Assembly: GCF_001921215.1 (NCBI RefSeq) | Contig: NZ_MSIF01000003.1 | Location: 310,001-374,000 of the forward strand | DNA: 64,000 bases | Direction: 5' to 3' | Source of the DNA: Actinophytocola xinjiangensis | Lineage (GTDB): Bacteria; Actinomycetota; Actinomycetes; Mycobacteriales; Pseudonocardiaceae | In this document: positions 9,714 to 17,647 of the stretch, piece by piece | Position numbering within the stretch: position 1 is the first letter of the stretch | Layout of the letters: the number at the start of each line of letters is the position of its first letter | The notes under the pieces: model-generated | What the model was told of the DNA's origin: nothing | What the model saw: only the letters and a program-made list of their open reading frames with translations | Databases searched by the model: none | Position numbers and translations under genes: made by a program

Positions 9714-10487
9714 ATGCCGCTGCTGCGTGACCTGCTGGACGCCATCGGTGACCGCCGGGTCGAGATCGTCGACCTGACCGCGCCGCTGTCGGCCGACACG
9801 CCGATCCTGGCCCTGCCCGAGCCGTTCGCCAACACGATTCCCTTCCGGCTGGAGGAGATCAGCCGCTACGACGAGGCCGGGCCGGCCTGGTACTGGAACA
9901 ACATCCACACCGGCGAGCACACCGGCACCCACGTCGACGCCCCGGTGCACTGGGTGTCCGGAAAGGACGGTGTGGACGTCTCCCGGCTGGCGTTGCCGCA
10001 GCTGATCGCCCCGGCCGTGGTCATCGACGTGTCCGACCGCGTCGCCGACGACCCGGACCACCTGGTCGGCATCGACGACGTCCGCGCCTGGGAGCGGGCC
10101 AACGGTCCGCTGCCCGTCGGCGGCTGGGTGCTGGTGCGCACCGGCTGGGACGAGCGCTCCGAGGACTCCGACCGGTTCCTCAACGCCGACGAGAACGGCC
10201 CGCACTCCCCCGGTCTGTCCGCCGAGTGCGCGCGCTGGCTCGCCCAGGAGACCCCGGTGATCGGCCTTGGCGTGGAGACCGTCGGCACCGACGCCGGGGC
10301 CGCGCACGGGTTCGACCCGCCGTTCCCGTGCCACAACTACTTCCTCGGCGCCGGCAAGCTCGGCCTCACCCAGCTGCGCAACCTCGCGACGCTGCCGCCG
10401 ACCGGCTCGGTGATCGTGGTCTCGCCGCTGCCGATCGTCGGCGGATCGGGCAGCCCGGCCAGGGTCTACGCGCTCGTCGAGCGGTGA
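9714..10487 (+). CDS. Cyclase-family metal-dependent hydrolase (kynurenine formamidase-like)
   Basis: 257 aa, cytoplasmic. The defining motif HTGTHVDAPVHW (about residues 71-82, the H-x-G-T-H-x-D metal-binding motif) is present, as is a C-terminal HGFDPPFPCHNYF segment. The family includes kynurenine formamidases and isatin or other amide/lactone hydrolases. AGGAG sits 6 nt before the ATG. The stop overlaps the GTG of the ThDP enzyme gene (10484-10487), so the two are translationally coupled and probably act in one pathway. No tryptophan-pathway genes are nearby, so kynurenine is not favoured as substrate. Confidence 0.82.
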   Translation: MPLLRDLLDAIGDRRVEIVDLTAPLSADTPILALPEPFANTIPFRLEEISRYDEAGPAWYWNNIHTGEHTGTHVDAPVHWVSGKDGVDVSRLALPQLIAPAVVIDVSDRVADDPDHLVGIDDVRAWERANGPLPVGGWVLVRTGWDERSEDSDRFLNADENGPHSPGLSAECARWLAQETPVIGLGVETVGTDAGAAHGFDPPFPCHNYFLGAGKLGLTQLRNLATLPPTGSVIVVSPLPIVGGSGSPARVYALVER

Positions 10488-12100
10488 ACGTCGCCGAACA
10501 GGTCGGCACCGCCCTGGCACGACTCGGCGTCGCCCACGCCTTCGGCGTGGTCGGCAGCGGCAACTTCGTGGTGACCAACGCGCTGCGCGCCGCCGGTGTG
10601 CCGTTCACCGCCGCCCGGCACGAGGGCGGCGCGGCGACGATGGCCGACGCGTACGCCAGGACCAGCGGGCGCCCGGCCGTGGTCACCACCCACCAGGGCT
10701 GCGGGCTGACCAACGCGCTCACCGGGATCGCCGAGGCCGCCAAGAGCCGCACCCCGCTGCTGGTGCTCACCGGCGACACCCCGGGCGCGGCGGTCACCTC
10801 GAACTTCCGGATCGACCAGGACGCCGCCGTCACGGCCGTCGGCGCGGTCGCCGAGCGGGTGCACACGCCGGCCAGCGCGATGGCCGACACCGTGCGCGCG
10901 TTCCGTCAGGCGACCCACGATCGTCGCACAGTGGTGCTGGGGCTTCCGCTGGACGTCCAGGCCGCCGACGCCGTCGGGTCGCTGCCCGACGTGCCGGAGC
11001 CGCCGCTGCCGGTGCGGCCGCACCCGGACGCCGTCGCCGCGCTCGCCGCGCTCGTCGAACGGGCGCGGCGGCCGGTGTTCGTCGCCGGGCGCGGTGCGCG
11101 GGCGGCCGGGCCGGAACTGGCGGAGCTGGCGGAGACGGCCGGGGCGCTGCTGGCGACCTCGGCGGTCGCCAACGGGCTGTTCGCCGGGAACCCGTTCGCG
11201 CTGGGCATCGCCGGCGGGTTCGCCACCCCGCTGGCGGCCGAGCTGATCGCCGGGGCGGACCTGGTCGTCGGCTGGGGCGCCGCGCTCAACCGGTGGACCA
11301 CCGGGCACGGCCGGCTGCTCGGCCCCGACGCCACGGTGGTCCAGGTCGACCTCGACCCGGCGGCGCTGGGCGTCCACCGGCCGGTCGACCTGGGGGTGCT
11401 CGGCGACGTCGCGCTGACCGCCAGGGACCTCGCGGCCCTGCTGGGTCCGCGCACGGGCTACCGCACCGGCGAGGTGCGCGAGCGGATCGCCGCGCGCGGG
11501 CGCTGGCGCGACGTCCCGTTCACCGACGCCTCCACCGGTGACCGGATCGACCCGAGGGCGCTCAACGTGCGGCTGGACGAACTGCTGCCGGCCGATCGGG
11601 TCGTCGCGGTCGACTCCGGCAACTTCATGGGCTACCCCAGCGCCTACCTCGGGGTGCCCGACCAGTTCGGTTTCTGCTTCACCCAGGCGTTCCAGTCCAT
11701 CGGCCTCGGGCTGGCGACGGCGATCGGCGCCGCGCTCGCCAGCCCAGGCCGGCTGCCGGTCGCCGCGCTCGGCGACGGCGGCGCGCTGATGAGCGTCGCC
11801 GAGCTGGACACCGTGGTACGGCTGGGGTTGCCGATGGTGATCGTGGTGCACAACGACGACGCCTACGGCGCCGAGGTGCACCACTTCACCGGCCAGGACC
11901 ACGGCGCGGTCCGCTTCCCGGACACCGACCTCGCCGCGATCGGCGCCGGTTTCGGTGCCGCGTCGCTGACCGTGCGCACGCTCGCCGACCTCGACGGCGT
12001 CACCGCGTGGCTCAACGGTCCGCGTGACCGTCCGCTGGTGGTCGACGCCAAGGTCACCGACGACGGCGGGGCGTGGTGGCTGGCCGACGCGTTCCGCTGA
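10484..12100 (+). CDS. Thiamine diphosphate-dependent enzyme (acetolactate synthase/decarboxylase-like)
   Basis: 538 aa with the full three-domain ThDP architecture. The N-terminal Pyr domain carries the catalytic Glu in ARHEGGAATMADAYARTSG; the central domain begins near RRPVFVAGRGARAAGPEL; the C-terminal PP domain carries the GDG-to-N motif (ALGDGGALMSVAEL to HNDDAYG). Enzymes of this family decarboxylate or ligate 2-oxoacids. The HNDDAYG ending differs from the NN of acetolactate synthase, so a 2-oxoacid decarboxylase role is as likely. The start is the GTG overlapping the upstream stop (GTGA); the longer open frame runs back over the cyclase gene. Confidence 0.85.
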   Translation: MNVAEQVGTALARLGVAHAFGVVGSGNFVVTNALRAAGVPFTAARHEGGAATMADAYARTSGRPAVVTTHQGCGLTNALTGIAEAAKSRTPLLVLTGDTPGAAVTSNFRIDQDAAVTAVGAVAERVHTPASAMADTVRAFRQATHDRRTVVLGLPLDVQAADAVGSLPDVPEPPLPVRPHPDAVAALAALVERARRPVFVAGRGARAAGPELAELAETAGALLATSAVANGLFAGNPFALGIAGGFATPLAAELIAGADLVVGWGAALNRWTTGHGRLLGPDATVVQVDLDPAALGVHRPVDLGVLGDVALTARDLAALLGPRTGYRTGEVRERIAARGRWRDVPFTDASTGDRIDPRALNVRLDELLPADRVVAVDSGNFMGYPSAYLGVPDQFGFCFTQAFQSIGLGLATAIGAALASPGRLPVAALGDGGALMSVAELDTVVRLGLPMVIVVHNDDAYGAEVHHFTGQDHGAVRFPDTDLAAIGAGFGAASLTVRTLADLDGVTAWLNGPRDRPLVVDAKVTDDGGAWWLADAFR

Positions 12101-12148
12101 CGGGACGGTCCCTGGCGCGGCCCGCCGGCTCTGCCGCACCATCGGAGG

Positions 12149-12910
12149 ATGACCCCCGACCAGGTGCGACGCACCGCGACCGGGCCGACCGCCGGGCTCG
12201 CGGCCGGCTACACGCAGGCCAACCTGATCGCCGTGCCCGCCGACCTGGCCTACGAGATGCTGCTGTTCGCCCAGCGCAACCCGAAGCCGTGCCCGGTGCT
12301 GGACGTGACCGACACCGGCAGCCCGCACACCGTGCTGGCACCCGGCGCCGACCTGCGCACCGCCCTGCCGCGCTACCGCGTCTGGCGCGACGGGGATCTC
12401 GTCGCCGAGCCGACCGACGTCACCGGGTACTGGCGCGCGGACCTGGTGGCGCTGCTGATCGGGTGCAGCTTCACCTTCGAGACCGCGCTGGCCGCCGCCG
12501 GGATCCCGCTGCGCCACCGTGACCAGGGCGTCAACGTGCCGATGTTCGTCACCGACCGCGAGTGCCGCCCGGCCGGGAGGCTGCACGGCCCGCTGGTGGT
12601 GTCGCTGCGGATGATCCCGGCCGGGCTGGTCGACCTCGCGGTGGCGATCAGCGCCAGGATGCCGGCCGTGCACGGCGCCCCGGTGCACGTCGGCGACCCC
12701 ACCGCGCTGGGCATCGCCGACCTGGCGGCCCCGGACTTCGGCGACCCGGTGCGGGCCCACGACGGTGACGTGCCGGTGTTCTGGGCGTGCGGGGTGACGC
12801 CGCAGGCGGTGCTGACGGCCTCCCGGCCGCCGTTCGCGATCACCCACGCACCGGGGCACATGTTGGTCACCGACGTGCGGGACACCGAGTACCTCACCGT
12901 CCCGCTCTAG
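12149..12910 (+). CDS. DUF1445 family protein (putative hydro-lyase / D-glutamate cyclase-like)
   Basis: 253 aa, cytoplasmic. Recognisable by [20 protein letters not shown] near the N-terminus, [20 protein letters not shown] in the middle and the closing [13 protein letters not shown]. Members are annotated as putative hydro-lyases, and a mitochondrial relative is a D-glutamate cyclase; the bacterial reaction is generally unknown. GGAGG directly abuts the ATG, which is too close to act as a normal Shine-Dalgarno sequence, so initiation may be leaderless or coupled; a GTG at 12164 is an alternative. It lies between the ThDP enzyme and the creatininase gene on the same strand. Confidence 0.78.
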
Positions 12911-12920
12911 GGTGCGGGAC

Positions 12921-13643
12921 ATGACCAACCACCTCCTCCCCACGGCCACCGCCACCGAGGAACGGGACCGGGGCGCCGGCATCGCGCTGCTTCCGGTCGG
13001 CAGCTTCGAGCAGCACGGCACGTTCCTGCCGCTGGCCACCGACACCGTCATCGCGGTCACCGTGGCCAGGGCGATCGGCGAGGCCGTCGACGTGTTCGAG
13101 CTGCCGCCGGTGACCGTGTCCTGCTCGCACGAGCACGCCGCCTGGCACGGCACCGTCAGCATCTCGGCGGCGACGCTGTACGCGGTGGTCACCGACATCG
13201 CCGCGTCGCTGCGGGCCAGCGGGGTGTCGAAGCTGGTGCTGGTCAGCGGACACGGCGGCAACTACGTACTGGGCAACGTCGTGCAGGAGGCCGGTGCCGC
13301 CGGGCACGCGATGGCCCTGTTCCCCACCGAGGACGACTGGGCGCGGGCCCGCCGCGACGCCGGGGTCGAGCTGAGCGCGGTCCACGACATGCACGCCGGC
13401 GAGCTGGAGACCTCGATCATGCTGCACGCGCACCCCGAGCTGGTGCGCGCCGACCACGCCGAGCACGACCACCTCGCCGACGACCGGGGCCGGTTCCTCA
13501 CCCTCGGACTGCGCGCCTACACCGAGTCCGGGGTGATCGGGCGGCCCTCGCTCGCCTCCGCCGGAAAGGGCCGCGACGCCGTGCGCAGCCTGGTCGACTC
13601 GTTCGCCGGGGTGGTCGACGCGTTGGACAGGTGCGGCAGGTAG
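12921..13643 (+). CDS. Creatininase-family amidohydrolase
   Basis: 240 aa. Creatininase-fold signatures: LLPVGSFEQHGTFLPLATD (metal ligands in EQHG and D), HEHAAWHGTVSIS, VLVSGHGGNYVLGN and DMHAGELETSIML, all with intact metal-binding residues. The family includes creatininase, mycofactocin peptidase MftE and the archaeal ArfB that hydrolyses FAPy (established). The ATG at 12921 is 7 nt after TAGGGT (12908-12913), a good -10 that overlaps the upstream stop; GTG 12912 is an alternative. Its last 127 bp overlap the convergent ribA-like gene, whose enzyme is predicted to make FAPy. A role opening the formamide of FAPy or a derivative is therefore attractive (inference). Confidence 0.82.
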   Translation: MTNHLLPTATATEERDRGAGIALLPVGSFEQHGTFLPLATDTVIAVTVARAIGEAVDVFELPPVTVSCSHEHAAWHGTVSISAATLYAVVTDIAASLRASGVSKLVLVSGHGGNYVLGNVVQEAGAAGHAMALFPTEDDWARARRDAGVELSAVHDMHAGELETSIMLHAHPELVRADHAEHDHLADDRGRFLTLGLRAYTESGVIGRPSLASAGKGRDAVRSLVDSFAGVVDALDRCGR

Positions 13644-14245
13644 TGGCCGAGGCGTTCGCGCTTGGTGGCCAGGTAGCTCAGGTTCTCCTCCCCCGGCTCG
13701 ATCAGCAGGGGAACCCGTTCACTGATCCGGATCCCCTTCGCGCGTAACGCCGCCACCTTCTGCGGGTTGTTCGACAGCAGCCGGATGGAGGCCACGCCGA
13801 GCTCGTCGAGGATGTCGGCGGCGACGTCGAAGCTGCGCGCGTCGACCGGCAGGCCGAGCGCGACGTTCGCCTCGACGGTGTCCATGCCCTCCTCCTGCAG
13901 GCGCATCGCCCGCAGCTTGGCGACCAGCCCGATGCCCCGGCCCTCGTGACCGGTCAGGTAGATCACCACGCCCGCGCCGGCCGCGACGATCTCCCGCAGC
14001 GACGCGTCGAGCTGCTCACCGCACTCACAGCGGGTGGAGCCGAAGACGTCCCCGGTCAGGCATTCGGAGTGCACCCTGGTCAGCGGGCTGAACCCGGTGA
14101 GGTCACCGTGGACGGCCGCCAGGTGCTCGTGCCCGTGCCGGTCCAGGTATCCGACCGCGCGGAACTCCCCGTACCGGGTGGGCAGGCGGGTCTCGCCGAC
14201 CCGAACGATGGTGCCGTGCCGCTCGATGTCGGCCAGATCAGTCAT
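13517..14245 (-). CDS. ribA: GTP cyclohydrolase II homologue with Met at the Tyr switch (predicted FAPy-forming)
   Basis: 242 aa. All core GCH II elements are present: RVHSECLTGDVFGSTRCECG with zinc ligands Cys62, Cys73 and Cys75, HEGRGIGL (100-107), DTVEANVALGL and RLLSNNPQKV. The residue aligned with catalytic Tyr105 of E. coli RibA is Met114 (KLRAMRLQEEG; ATG codon at 13904-13906). A Met here was reported as the switch that makes a Streptomyces coelicolor paralogue release the formylated intermediate FAPy. The C-terminal ~37 residues after LPHL are low-complexity and overlap the creatininase gene by 127 bp. The ATG overlaps the upstream stop (ATGA). As the last gene of a five-gene operon without other riboflavin genes, it is probably not the housekeeping RibA. 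Confidence 0.9.
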   Translation of the reverse strand: MTDLADIERHGTIVRVGETRLPTRYGEFRAVGYLDRHGHEHLAAVHGDLTGFSPLTRVHSECLTGDVFGSTRCECGEQLDASLREIVAAGAGVVIYLTGHEGRGIGLVAKLRAMRLQEEGMDTVEANVALGLPVDARSFDVAADILDELGVASIRLLSNNPQKVAALRAKGIRISERVPLLIEPGEENLSYLATKRERLGHYLPHLSNASTTPANESTRLRTASRPFPAEASEGRPITPDSV

Positions 14246-15204
14246 GCAAGCCTCTCCCGTCGAACCAACAGCATCAGCGCACCGGGCAGGCTCGCGACCA
14301 GACCGAGAAGTCCGTAGGCGACGGCGGCGGTGAGGCCCTGTGCGGCTCCGAGCCCGGCGGCGGCGAACATCAGCGCGGTCACCCCCTCCCTCGGCCCCCA
14401 GCCGCCGACGTTGACCGGCAGTCCCATGGCGAGCAACGCGACCACGACGATCGGCAGCAGCTGGCCGGCCGGCTGGTCGGCCCCCGCCGCGTGCATCGCG
14501 ATCAGGAACAGCGTCACATGCCCGGCAAGCGCCAACGCCGACAACAGCGCGACCCCGGGCCACGCGTCGCGAGCCAGCAAGCCGGTGCGCACGTCCTCAA
14601 AAGTACGCCGCCAACGCGATCGTGCCCCGATCAATTTGCGCGCCATCATGTACACGAGTACCAGGACCGCAACTCCGGCGAGCACCGCGAAGCCCACCTC
14701 GCGGGCCGGTCCGGCGACCAGCACCACCACCCCGGCGGCGATCACCACGGCCTGGCCGGCCATCCGTTCGAGCACCACCGCGCGTACCCCGGCGCCCAGA
14801 TCGCCCTCCTCGCGGCCGTGGCGCACCGCGCGCTGCACGTCGCCGAGCACCCCGGCCGGCAGGACCGCGTTCAGGAACAGCGCCCGGTAGTAGTCACCGA
14901 CCGCGCGCCCCAGCGGCAGCCGCAGCCCGAGACGGCGGGCGACCAGACACCAGCGGCCGGCGCACAGCACGGTCGTCGCCAGCCCGATGCCCAGCGCGGC
15001 CGCCACCTCGGTCACCGAGATGACCCGCAGCCCCTCGACGAACCCGGCCGCGCCCAGCTTCCACACCAGCGCGCCCACGATGCCCGCGCCGACGAGCAGC
15101 TTCACCCACGCCCACAGCCGGGCGTTTCCCCGCCGTGGCGCGGGTTCCGGTGCGGGGGGCGGGACCGGCGGGGCGGCGACCGGCCGTTCGAGCATGGCGG
15201 TCAT
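14242..15204 (-). CDS. Flippase-like integral membrane protein (LPG synthase TM / UPF0104 family)
   Basis: 320 aa. After a Pro/Ala-rich N-terminus of about 35 residues come roughly eight hydrophobic helices, with the family landmarks GRWCLVARRLGL, YYRALFLNAVLPAGVLGDV and GLPVNVGGWGPREGV. This is the membrane half of lysylphosphatidylglycerol synthase; free-standing members are thought to translocate lipids or glycosylated compounds. There is no aminoacyl-transferase domain. Both ends overlap neighbours by ATGA (15201-15204 and 14242-14245). Placed between a glycosyltransferase and a GTP cyclohydrolase, it may export the product of this operon (inference). Confidence 0.85.
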   Translation of the reverse strand: MTAMLERPVAAPPVPPPAPEPAPRRGNARLWAWVKLLVGAGIVGALVWKLGAAGFVEGLRVISVTEVAAALGIGLATTVLCAGRWCLVARRLGLRLPLGRAVGDYYRALFLNAVLPAGVLGDVQRAVRHGREEGDLGAGVRAVVLERMAGQAVVIAAGVVVLVAGPAREVGFAVLAGVAVLVLVYMMARKLIGARSRWRRTFEDVRTGLLARDAWPGVALLSALALAGHVTLFLIAMHAAGADQPAGQLLPIVVVALLAMGLPVNVGGWGPREGVTALMFAAAGLGAAQGLTAAVAYGLLGLVASLPGALMLLVRRERLA

Positions 15205-16259
15205 CGGGGCCCACCCAGGTCGTCGAGCAGGACCGCGAGCCGGTCGCCGGCGCCCGCCCAGTCGGTGAGCTCCCGCTTGCGCGCGGCGTCGCGCAGCCGT
15301 TCCCGCAGGCGGGGTTCGGTCAGCCAGCGGCGCAGGGCGGCGGTCAGCGCCGGCACGTCGTCCGGCGGCACCAGCAGGCCCGGCACGGCACCGGCGGCGG
15401 TGCGCCCGACAGTCTCCGGCAACGCGTCCACGTCCGAGGCCAGCACCGGCATCCCCCTGGCCAGCGCCTCGGTCACGACCATGCCGAAGGTCTCCTGCCG
15501 CGAGGGCAGCACCAGCAGGTCCGACTCCGCGAACAGCGCCGCCAGCTCCGTGCCGGGCAGGGGCGCCAGCGGACCGGGCAGCGTGACCCGCCCGGCGAGA
15601 CCGTGGCGGCGGGCGAGGTCACGCACCCAGCCGACGAACTCCGGGTCGCGGTCCACCGAACCGACACAGGTACAGGTCCACGGCAGGTCGGCGAGCCCGG
15701 CCAGCGCCTCCACCAGCACGTCCTGGCCCTTGCGCGGCACGATCGCCGCCACGCACAGCAGCCGCGTGCCGTCACCGCCGTCGCCCGGCGGCGCCGGGTC
15801 GGTGCCCGGCTCGACGACGTGCACCCGCTCGGGGTCCAGCCGGTGCAGGCCGGTCAGCCGCCGCCACGCCCACCGGCTGGTGGCGACCACGGCGAACGCC
15901 GCGCGCAGCGTCTCGCGCTCCAGCGCGTCCAGCTCGGCGGCCCGCTCACCCGGCAGGGCGGTGTCGTCACCGAGGGGCATGTGCACCAGCACCACCAGCC
16001 GCAGCCGCCGCGCGTGCGGCACCACCACCGCCGGCACCCCGCACGCCACCAGCCCGTCGACCAGGGTCACCGTGCCGTCGGGGACCTCGGCCAGCGCCCG
16101 GTCGAGCGCCACCCGCGAGGCGGTGTCCGGCACCGGCCAGCGCCCGGCGACCGGCACCGGCGTCAGACCGGCGACCGCGCTCACCCGCCGGTCGTAGACG
16201 TTGCCGCCGCTGGCCAGCGCGACGTCGTCGACGTCGGACGGGACGACGAACGGGATCAC
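15201..16259 (-). CDS. GT4-type glycosyltransferase
   Basis: 352 aa with two Rossmann-like domains (GT-B fold). The C-terminal domain has [20 protein letters not shown], the phosphate-binding region, and the retaining GT4 E-x7-E motif in [14 protein letters not shown]. The N-terminus [22 protein letters not shown] contains the donor-domain glycine loop. The GTG at 16259 overlaps the stop of the PTPS-like gene (GTGA); an ATG at 16283 is open but would overlap more. The acceptor is unknown. Its neighbours suggest a pterin- or pyrimidine-like acceptor, similar in idea to bacterial pteridine glycosyltransferases, but this is inference. Confidence 0.87.
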
Positions 16260-16654
16260 AGCGCCCGCCGGTAGCTCGCCCACGCCACGTGGGACTCGCC
16301 CAGGGTCACGCTGATCTCGGACAGGCCGCGCGCGCCCTCGCCGAGCCCCCCGTCGTGGACCCGCTCGACGAGCTGGTCGGCGACGTACTTCGCCAGGAAC
16401 TCGGTCGAGGTGTTCACCCCGGCGAACTGCGGCAGCTCGTCGAGGTTGCGGTAGTTCAGTTCGCCGAGCACCTCGCCCAGGCGGGTACTCGCCAGGCCGA
16501 TGTCGACGACCAGGCCGTCGGCGTCGAGGTCCGCACGGTGGAAGGTGGCGTCCACGACGAACGTGGCGCCGTGCAACCGCTGCGCGGGCCCGAACACCTC
16601 GCCGTGGAAGCTGTGCGCGACCATCATGTGGTCCCGGACGGTGAGGCTGTACAC
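16256..16654 (-). CDS. 6-pyruvoyl-tetrahydropterin synthase (PTPS/QueD)-like protein, atypical active site
   Basis: 132 aa, single T-fold domain. Family features: the first zinc-type His in [19 protein letters not shown], the [15 protein letters not shown] helix and the substrate-anchoring Glu in LGESHVAW. Compared with QueD and PTPS it is unusual: the segment [12 protein letters not shown] has no catalytic Cys before the His, and the HGH zinc motif has become HGA, so one ligand is missing unless His17 replaces it. A different reaction or a binding role is likely. The start is GTG 16654 with AGGAGG upstream. The gene follows the MDR gene by 21 nt and overlaps the glycosyltransferase gene. Confidence 0.82.
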
Positions 16655-16675
16655 CCGCGCCTCCTGCTGTGTCGA

Positions 16676-17647
16676 TTACGTGTTGTCGTAGGTAACACGG
16701 ACACAGAGCGCGGACAGTTCAATCCCGTTCAACCTGGGCAGCAGGTCCGGCAGCTCGGCGAACCGGCACTCGCCGGTGATCAGGGCGTCGAAACCGGGGT
16801 CGGCCAGCAGGTCCAGGGCCACCGCCAGCCGCTGCGGGTAGCCCCGGCGGCCACGTTGGGCCGGCGAAACGGTACCCACCTGGCTGGCGCGCAGGGTCAG
16901 CCGCCGCGAGTGGAACCACTCCCCCAGCGGCACGGTCACCGGCCGGTCGCCGTACCAGCTCAGCTCGACCACCACGCCCTCCGGCGCCAGCAGCTCCAGC
17001 GACCTGGCCAGGCCGGCCGAGGTCGCCGAGGCGTGCACCACCAGGTCACAACCCTCGCGCGCGGCGTCCGGGGTGGCGAACTCGACGCCCAGGGCGTCGG
17101 CCAGCGCGGCGCGGTCGGGGTTGGTGTCCACCAGCTGCACCCTGGCGGCCGGGACACCGGCGAGCACCTTGGCCACCGACGCGCCGACCATGCCGGCGCC
17201 GACGACCGCGATCCGGTCACCGACCAGCGGCGCGGCGTCCCAGGCGGCGTTCACCGCGGTCTCCACCGTGCCGGCCAGGATCGCCCGTGCGGGTGGCACC
17301 GAGTCCGGCACGGGCGTCACCGAGGCCGCCGGCACCACGTACCGGGTCTGGTGCGGGTACAGGCAGAACACCGTCCGCCCGGCCAGCTCCGCCGGCCCCC
17401 GCTCCACGACGCCCACGTTGAGGTAGCCGTACTTCACCGGTGCCGGGAACGCGCCGTCCTGGAACGGCGCCCGCATGGCGGCGTGCTGGCTGTCCGGCAC
17501 GCCGCCACGGAACACGAGCGTCTCGGTGCCCCGGCTGACCCCCGAGTACAGGGTCCGCACGAGCACCTCGTCGGGGCCGGGGGCCGCGACCTCGACCGGT
17601 CGCAGCTCACCCCGGCCCGGTTCGGCGAGCCAGAACGCCTGGTCCAT
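16676..17647 (-). CDS. MDR-family (zinc-binding-dehydrogenase-like) oxidoreductase
   Basis: 323 aa. It has the GroES-like N-domain (DEVLVRTLYSGVSRGTETLV) and a Rossmann domain with DRIAVVGAGMVGASVAKVL binding NAD(P). The usual catalytic-zinc Cys (GICGTD in alcohol dehydrogenases) is replaced by SGVSRGTE and the structural-zinc Cys cluster is absent, so it is probably a zinc-independent reductase or dehydrogenase of the BchC-like branch. It is the first gene of the leftward operon with the PTPS-like, glycosyltransferase, flippase-like and ribA-like genes. The ATG lies 6 nt after a TACAGT -10, implying a leaderless message. Confidence 0.85.
   Translation of the reverse strand: MDQAFWLAEPGRGELRPVEVAAPGPDEVLVRTLYSGVSRGTETLVFRGGVPDSQHAAMRAPFQDGAFPAPVKYGYLNVGVVERGPAELAGRTVFCLYPHQTRYVVPAASVTPVPDSVPPARAILAGTVETAVNAAWDAAPLVGDRIAVVGAGMVGASVAKVLAGVPAARVQLVDTNPDRAALADALGVEFATPDAAREGCDLVVHASATSAGLARSLELLAPEGVVVELSWYGDRPVTVPLGEWFHSRRLTLRASQVGTVSPAQRGRRGYPQRLAVALDLLADPGFDALITGECRFAELPDLLPRLNGIELSALCVRVTYDNT

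Follow-up and report, generated by a model that had tools for sequence, protein, structure and literature searches.

A conserved gene set in Actinophytocola xinjiangensis that pairs an unusual GTP cyclohydrolase II with a creatininase-family hydrolase: a candidate split cyclohydrolase reaction

The locus and the recurrence of its genes

The window analyzed here is a 64,000-nucleotide stretch of the 9.5 Mb genome of Actinophytocola xinjiangensis (contig NZ_MSIF01000003.1, positions 310,001 to 374,000), and our interest lies in one of its loci, closest in sequence to that of Actinophytocola xanthii (L034). There, open reading frames (ORFs) and Pfam searches identified a compact operon of five minus-strand genes, convergent with a plus-strand gene of the creatininase family:

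16676-17647, minus strand: BchC-like MDR oxidoreductase that lacks the catalytic zinc ligands, the operon's first gene (ADH_zinc_N, below the Pfam cut-off)
16256-16654, minus strand: homologue of 6-pyruvoyl-tetrahydropterin synthase (PTPS) of the kind seen in SCO6650, having lost both its zinc site and its catalytic Cys (PF01242; match to 3d7j)
15201-16283, minus strand: GT4-type glycosyltransferase (PF00534)
14242-15204, minus strand: flippase-like membrane protein, LPG_synthase_TM (PF03706)
13517-14245, minus strand: GTP cyclohydrolase II (GCH2) with Met114, predicted to leave formamidopyrimidine monophosphate (FAPy) as product (PF00925; alignment with 2bz0)
12912-13643, plus strand: creatininase-family hydrolase (CREAT), predicted FAPy formamidase (PF02633; creatininase fold)

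The initial annotation had described a five-gene overlapping operon meeting a creatininase gene, and all six genes were recovered with their places, strands and families; the overlap does not extend to MDR and PTPS, which are separated by a 21-base gap, and the remaining operon pairs overlap by 28, 4 and 4 bases, in order. The GCH2 and creatininase genes have 127 coding bases in common at their 3' ends. Five of the families were assigned by Pfam, and that of the MDR from scores under the Pfam cut-offs.

The PTPS protein was scanned against genome contigs and the best 80 of at least 149 confirmed stretches were kept, with co-occurrence counted within each retrieved stretch, many of the contigs ending early. 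These 80 PTPS-seeded loci came from Actinomycetota, Pseudomonadota, Gemmatimonadota and Acidobacteriota, and contained GT4 (75/80), MDR (73/80), the flippase-like protein (53/80), GCH2 (46/80) and the creatininase (23/80), so that the six families do occur together in other genomes, as the initial annotation would have it. Clustering of the ORFs of the same loci revealed families beyond the window operon: an S-adenosylmethionine-dependent methyltransferase in 57, a CDP-alcohol phosphotransferase in 59, a RibD_C-type reductase (RIBD) in 46 and an LtaS-like enzyme in 32. (Clustering with the overlap filter undercounts PTPS, GT4 and the methyltransferase, and their figures come from other counts.) The pathway originally proposed from six genes did not include these four. 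Three GCH2 genes in 9.5 Mb would give about 0.006 per 20 kb stretch, and as GCH2 was observed in 46 of 80 loci, chance is not a likely cause of the association. The gene set is conserved in several bacterial phyla and comprises up to ten gene families, part of which the window's genome holds; its recurrence across four phyla points to a molecule made by many bacteria. Five Streptomyces loci (L037, L040, L044, L045 and L049) have an SCO6650-type PTPS copy in other surroundings, without the remaining cluster genes.

Relatives of the families missing from the window locus were found elsewhere in the host genome. A methyltransferase relative, 65% identical to the query from Actinophytocola oryzae (L035), lies at C1:279576-280340, and beside it a protein of 782 amino acids joins a CDP-alcohol phosphotransferase to an LtaS-like part (L172:6094-8442, own genome, C1), a fused frame that is also present in A. 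oryzae (L035:13882-16320). Pfam detects only the CDP-alcohol phosphotransferase part of this fusion, and a structure search by sequence with the fusion returned 0 matches. The model of the LtaS-like protein (predicted local distance difference test, pLDDT, 89) has long N-terminal helices with the look of membrane helices; it also has a domain that is matched best by LtaP/LtaS and other phospho-transferases. On contig C34 (L173:7208-8794), a fusion has a RibD_C reductase first and a deaminase domain second, whereas RibD usually has the two the other way round; the best curated model for this fusion is bacterial RibD, and for that reason it may serve riboflavin synthesis as well or instead. In all, the host genome gave one PTPS match and 16 RibD_C matches.

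The cyclohydrolase and its creatininase neighbor

The membership of the window GCH2 in its family is clear from PF00925 (213.6 bits) and from H59, C73 and C75, each present in 42 of 42 aligned non-tyrosine rows, and R137, present in 43 of 43, residues (window numbering) characteristic of GCH II, C73 and C75 being its zinc cysteines. What the window protein lacks is the active-site tyrosine. In alignment with 2bz0 its Met114 falls on Tyr105 of Escherichia coli RibA, exactly as had been read from the sequence initially, and among the 43 aligned non-tyrosine rows this position is held by M in 28, L in 8, H in 5 and I in 2. A further difference lies between the zinc cysteines, where C-E-C replaces C-D-C in 41 of 42 non-tyrosine rows versus 0 of 35 tyrosine rows.

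The host genome has three GCH2 genes in total, and the other two have a tyrosine at this position. One of them carries a DHBP-synthase domain by Pfam and the other sits in what is, by eye, an apparent riboflavin operon, rpe-ribE-ribBA-ribH. Had the window gene been the only ribA of its genome it could simply have been the riboflavin enzyme, a caution in the initial annotation, and this candidate role was rejected once the two additional genes were found; nor do rib genes adjoin the window GCH2.

On a tree of 69 GCH2 rows, for which the residue at the tyrosine position was masked and nine close rows were dropped, the split between tyrosine and non-tyrosine proteins is a single change (support 98/90) that was present in 97% of bootstrap trees. 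A quick tree, which leaves out the GCH2 pieces of L061 and L062, placed the cluster genes in an actinobacterial tyrosine group of 20 rows, a group of 10 rows from other phyla (L096 and L103 fall outside it) and a non-tyrosine group of 33 rows near actinobacterial RibBA. That the cluster genes fall in separate groups suggests that the cluster GCH2 was recruited more than once. In the Nocardiopsis cluster at L062:7448-8234, GCH2 is found as two pieces in different frames.

The convergent gene product is a creatininase by PF02633 (205 bits) and by its structure model (pLDDT 85), which has a template-modelling score of 0.74 to the creatininase 3a6d and for which all 26 structure matches at E 0.001 or better are creatininases. 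Residues E33, H35, D44, H114, H161 and E166, presumably those of the metal site, are invariant across the 42 rows that represent non-tyrosine clusters, the window included.

If this creatininase completed a cyclohydrolase reaction left unfinished by its partner, loss of the tyrosine would be expected to be paired with a creatininase close by. The pairing was assessed in 80 GCH2-bearing stretches, consisting of the window, PTPS-, GCH2- and CREAT-seeded loci and the two paralogues of the host itself; weak creatininase pieces in L079, L180, L204, L202 and L175 were dropped. A readable non-tyrosine residue was found in 44 of the 80 (28 Met, 9 Leu, 5 His and 2 Ile), and 42 of these 44 have a close creatininase, the other two (L069 and L108) being stretches that end just past the flippase-like gene. 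Tyrosine was found in 34 stretches, two of which are the host's own RibBA-type genes, and a creatininase in 6 of the 34; two stretches were unreadable. When the window and the 10 CREAT-found loci were taken away, a creatininase was still present in 31 of 33 non-tyrosine stretches, and none was present in the 20 actinobacterial tyrosine cluster loci (19 PTPS-seeded and L163), where GCH2 is flanked on either side by over 4 kb in 16 of the 19 PTPS-seeded loci, the other 3 being cut off within 1.3 kb of it on one side. These counts, freed of seeding bias, agree with the full counts. In the PTPS-seeded loci by themselves, a creatininase accompanies 12 of the 14 non-tyrosine genes and 6 of the 31 with tyrosine.

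Searches of 394 Actinomycetes genomes produced the same picture. The 30 best GCH2 genes among the matches listed were the window's, 19 with Met and 10 with tyrosine; a creatininase lies beside all 19 Met genes (genus f5/g8, six of them also PTPS matches), and none was found in the 1.5 kb flanks of the 10 tyrosine genes. The creatininase search gave 46 matches in 44 of the 394 genomes, and 26 of the resulting stretches had not yet been covered, 12 with cluster genes and 14 without; the 10 readable GCH2 genes of those 12 were all non-tyrosine. In genus g270, with 12 genomes among the matches listed, a creatininase match occurs in each of the nine that have two GCH2 matches and in none of the three that have one (G547, G625 and G696). 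Tyrosine loss and a close creatininase thus go together, in keeping with the initial proposal that the creatininase follows a Met-type GCH II, and the pairing fits a split reaction in which GCH2 would stop at FAPy and the creatininase would deformylate it. Actinobacteria appear to hold the candidate cyclohydrolase and formamidase side by side, which makes the split reaction directly testable.

A proposed pathway and its alternatives

Other enzymes of the gene set bear on what might follow. The PTPS homologue matches 3d7j, the structure of Streptomyces coelicolor SCO6650, over its full length (residues 1-132 of 132, E 1.9e-62), and this similarity, with the recurring neighbors, marks it as a relative of SCO6650, which we take to be a T-fold protein. 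It has the Pfam PTPS domain in common with QueD/PTPS enzymes, but at A24 and A30, the positions we take to be those of their catalytic Cys and last zinc His, alanine stands in 101 of 101 rows (window included), so that the set of a catalytic Cys and three zinc His is incomplete; H14, H28 and E120 are invariant. PTPS chemistry is unlikely on account of these replacements, the QueD score is 34.4 bits against a cut-off of 89.25, and the homologue seems to have one conserved, non-PTPS function across phyla. In the MDR, S38 (105/105 rows), R39 (104/105) and Y73-G74-Y75 (105/105), window included, stand where the zinc ligands would be, and the GxGxxG glycines of the Rossmann fold are kept in 105 of 105; its best NCBIfam model is bchC, at 51.5 bits against a cut-off of 291. 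The rearrangement and reduction initially assigned to these two proteins consequently found no support as written, the one having lost its catalytic Cys and a zinc His and the other its catalytic zinc ligands. The RIBD of the Micromonospora cluster (L048) has as its best model the archaeal 2,5-diamino-6-ribosylamino-pyrimidinone phosphate reductase (133.8 bits, cut-off 186), and its best solved relatives are 5xux and variants, then 6p8c, named as that archaeal reductase, ahead of bacterial RibD.

The families, their recurrence, the residue changes and the coupling were computed; what we infer is each reaction, its place in the order, and that the product is linked to lipid. We think it reasonably probable that the locus belongs to a conserved biosynthetic pathway for which a split cyclohydrolase reaction on GTP is the entry point and which continues as follows. 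The non-tyrosine GCH2 would open GTP and stop at FAPy, from which the neighboring creatininase would remove the formyl group to give 2,5-diamino-6-ribosylamino-4(3H)-pyrimidinone 5'-phosphate; where the cluster GCH2 has its tyrosine, it would need no partner for the two steps. These first two steps are proposed on the basis of the coupling, of what is reported of S. coelicolor SCO6655 and of the precedent of BrbF, discussed below, and the later ones are suggested by the enzyme families. RIBD would convert the ribosyl to a ribityl chain, and the resulting compound would be modified or cyclised by the MDR together with the PTPS homologue, which is zinc-free; GT4 would glycosylate it and the methyltransferase would methylate it. 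The CDP-alcohol phosphotransferase, the flippase-like protein and the LtaS-like enzyme would then attach a lipid and handle the product at the outer face of the membrane. The product would probably be a small molecule that is membrane-linked.

Several observations weigh against this pathway. As the tyrosine/non-tyrosine split is a single change on the tree, the coupling goes back to one evolutionary event that many genomes have preserved. A creatininase is also found in six tyrosine clusters, which come from Proteobacteria, Gemmatimonadota and Acidobacteriota; it shares 30-33% identity with that of the window and lies on a separate branch, and the pathway would leave its job there unexplained. 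The 14 CREAT stretches without any cluster gene (L182-L184, L189, L191-L194, L197-L199, L202, L204 and L205) include 11 in which the neighbor is regulator-like (XRE-type by reading) and five that begin within about 2 kb of CREAT. On the tree, the L197 creatininase groups with the cluster copies, and the cluster may therefore be split in that genome. The window creatininase passes no curated FAPy-hydrolase model, with 29.8 bits to ArfB (NF033501) against a cut-off of 180, and its best curated model is MftE (TIGR03964), at 126.4 bits against a cut-off of 172; membership in either family was rejected, both scores being under the cut-offs. As for the reductase, the archaeal model comes first for no RIBD but that of Micromonospora: the top score is to the general ribD_Cterm model for the proteobacterial L098 protein and to bacterial RibD for the fusion in the host's own genome. 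RIBD is also present in only 5 of 44 non-tyrosine versus 30 of 34 tyrosine stretches.

The creatininase points are those on which a different role for this enzyme would be built. In such a scheme it would act on a later intermediate or on another amide or peptide bond, like the related MftE, for which its score is far above that for ArfB, and FAPy would be a building block that is never deformylated; a creatininase kept in the six tyrosine clusters outside Actinobacteria, and in 14 stretches without cluster genes, 11 of them next to a regulator-like gene, would be at home there. A late step would not predict a creatininase in 42 of 44 non-tyrosine loci and in none of 20 actinobacterial tyrosine loci (three of them cut off within 1.3 kb), and BrbF (PMC9478397) demonstrates that the creatininase family can supply a FAPy formamidase, so that we consider this role unlikely. 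It is extremely improbable that the window GCH2 is a spare riboflavin enzyme. The zinc cysteines and the GCH II arginine are indeed in place, but two other tyrosine-type genes are available to the host, one of them between apparent riboflavin synthase and lumazine synthase genes, and the window protein is a single domain encoded in a different operon, one that recurs with other families.

Where the pathway leads after the reductase is a separate matter. It is possible, though the lesser chance, that an N-ribityl pyrimidine is kept or a lumazine-like ring made, the result being a lipid-linked derivative of a riboflavin precursor. The MDR would then have the sugar or some other part as its target, and the PTPS homologue would be a binding protein. 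The likeness of the cluster RIBD to RibD-type reductases, closest to archaeal ones in Micromonospora, and the PTPS homologue's lack of catalytic residues are in favor of this reading, as is the fusion of the host reductase relative to a deaminase, which would give the uracil form. Against it, neither a dihydroxybutanone-phosphate synthase nor a lumazine synthase was recognized among the recurring families, which were read by eye and not each annotated, and the invariant Glu120 (101/101), which we take to belong to the pocket of the PTPS homologue, suggests that binding of a pterin or pyrimidine is kept. A bolder scheme, and in our estimation a quite unlikely one, is a redox route to a pterin in several phyla without GTP cyclohydrolase I, through C1' reduction, C2' oxidation and ring closure, followed by membrane anchoring. 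In the ribosylamino-diaminopyrimidine phosphate, C1' would be reduced by the reductase and the C2' alcohol oxidised by the MDR, a dehydrogenase without zinc. The outcome would be the very 1-deoxy-ribulosylamino compound for which GTP cyclohydrolase I uses an Amadori rearrangement. Ring closure by the PTPS homologue, a T-fold protein free of zinc, would yield a dihydroneopterin-type monophosphate; glycosylation and methylation of this pterin would be followed by its attachment to lipid through the CDP-alcohol phosphotransferase, by flipping, and by completion on the outside through the LtaS-like enzyme.

Related systems and neighboring genes

The split reaction and the pathway proposed from it have precedents in part. 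The 19 clusters of genus f5/g8, probably Streptomyces, in which the Met GCH2 is beside the creatininase, have the order PTPS-GT4-(MT)-FLIP-CREAT-GCH2, with the methyltransferase (MT) in 16 and RIBD between the flippase-like gene (FLIP) and CREAT in 4, an order in agreement with the gene numbering of SCO6650 to SCO6655 in S. coelicolor. To our knowledge, no function or pathway has been assigned to that cluster. SCO6650 and SCO6655 are said to have been studied singly between 2006 and 2008; the 2006 paper of Spoonamore and colleagues reportedly covers SCO6655, which is said to yield FAPy because of this very Met. The window differs from the S. coelicolor arrangement in that its GCH2 belongs to the main operon and converges with the creatininase instead of diverging from it, and its genome has the methyltransferase, CDP-alcohol phosphotransferase and reductase relatives elsewhere. 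The proposed pathway would also assign SCO6650 and SCO6655 to a pathway.

In the literature searched, outside which most subscription papers lie, no description of this cluster or of the creatininase coupling was found. By its title, as cited in PMC3509567, the paper of Spoonamore et al. 2006 is on the GCH II proteins of S. coelicolor; SCO6655 has a table entry in PMC2853524, and SCO6652 is mentioned in PMC3610822. The system, or metabolite, was therefore not as undescribed as initially supposed, since SCO6650 has a solved structure (3d7j) and the GCH II proteins a 2006 paper, although the cluster itself was not found described. The families and the type of first step are known; their combination and the coupling we could not find described.

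For the creatininase step, Yurgel et al. 2022 (PMC9478397) present BrbF of Sinorhizobium meliloti as a creatininase-family FAPy formamidase that serves riboflavin synthesis, and its partner cyclohydrolase had yet to be identified in that work. By its description BrbF resembles the window enzyme: both are of the creatininase family, and the substrate of BrbF is the one proposed for the window enzyme (FAPy/AFRPP). The difference is that the window has a candidate partner cyclohydrolase adjacent. PMC9478397 also names ArfB. MftE of mycofactocin synthesis, despite being the best-scoring curated model for the window creatininase, is below its cut-off, and the recurring neighbors here are of other families. 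In Archaea, riboflavin synthesis starts with GCH III, ArfB and ArfC, and the likeness to the proposed pathway is that FAPy is followed by a formamidase and then a reductase, the latter resembled by that of the Micromonospora cluster. The window differs in having GCH II as its cyclohydrolase and a creatininase far under the ArfB cut-off, and the end product of the proposed pathway would not be riboflavin.

A single base separates the start of the window creatininase from a D-glutamate-cyclase-like gene (12149-12910, plus strand), the last of the plus-strand neighbors in window positions 9714-12910, the others being a cyclase/arylformamidase-like gene (9714) and a gene for a thiamine pyrophosphate (TPP) enzyme (10484). 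Position alone would tie the creatininase to this plus-strand operon, a membership that was rejected on comparison of recurrence, as the plus-strand neighbors recur in 1 of the 80 PTPS-seeded loci (L034 only) and the creatininase in 23.

In Nocardiopsis flavescens (L072:2371-10001) the cluster is split, with about 6.7 kb of other sequence between MDR and PTPS. Genes for YceI, an FkbM-type methyltransferase and a cytochrome b561-like protein are near the cluster mostly outside Actinobacteria. The YceI-type gene was seen in the proteobacterial loci L061, L074, L076-L078, L080, L081, L083, L093, L095, L098-L101 and L107, and FkbM-type methyltransferase or cytochrome b561-like genes were seen in some loci as well.

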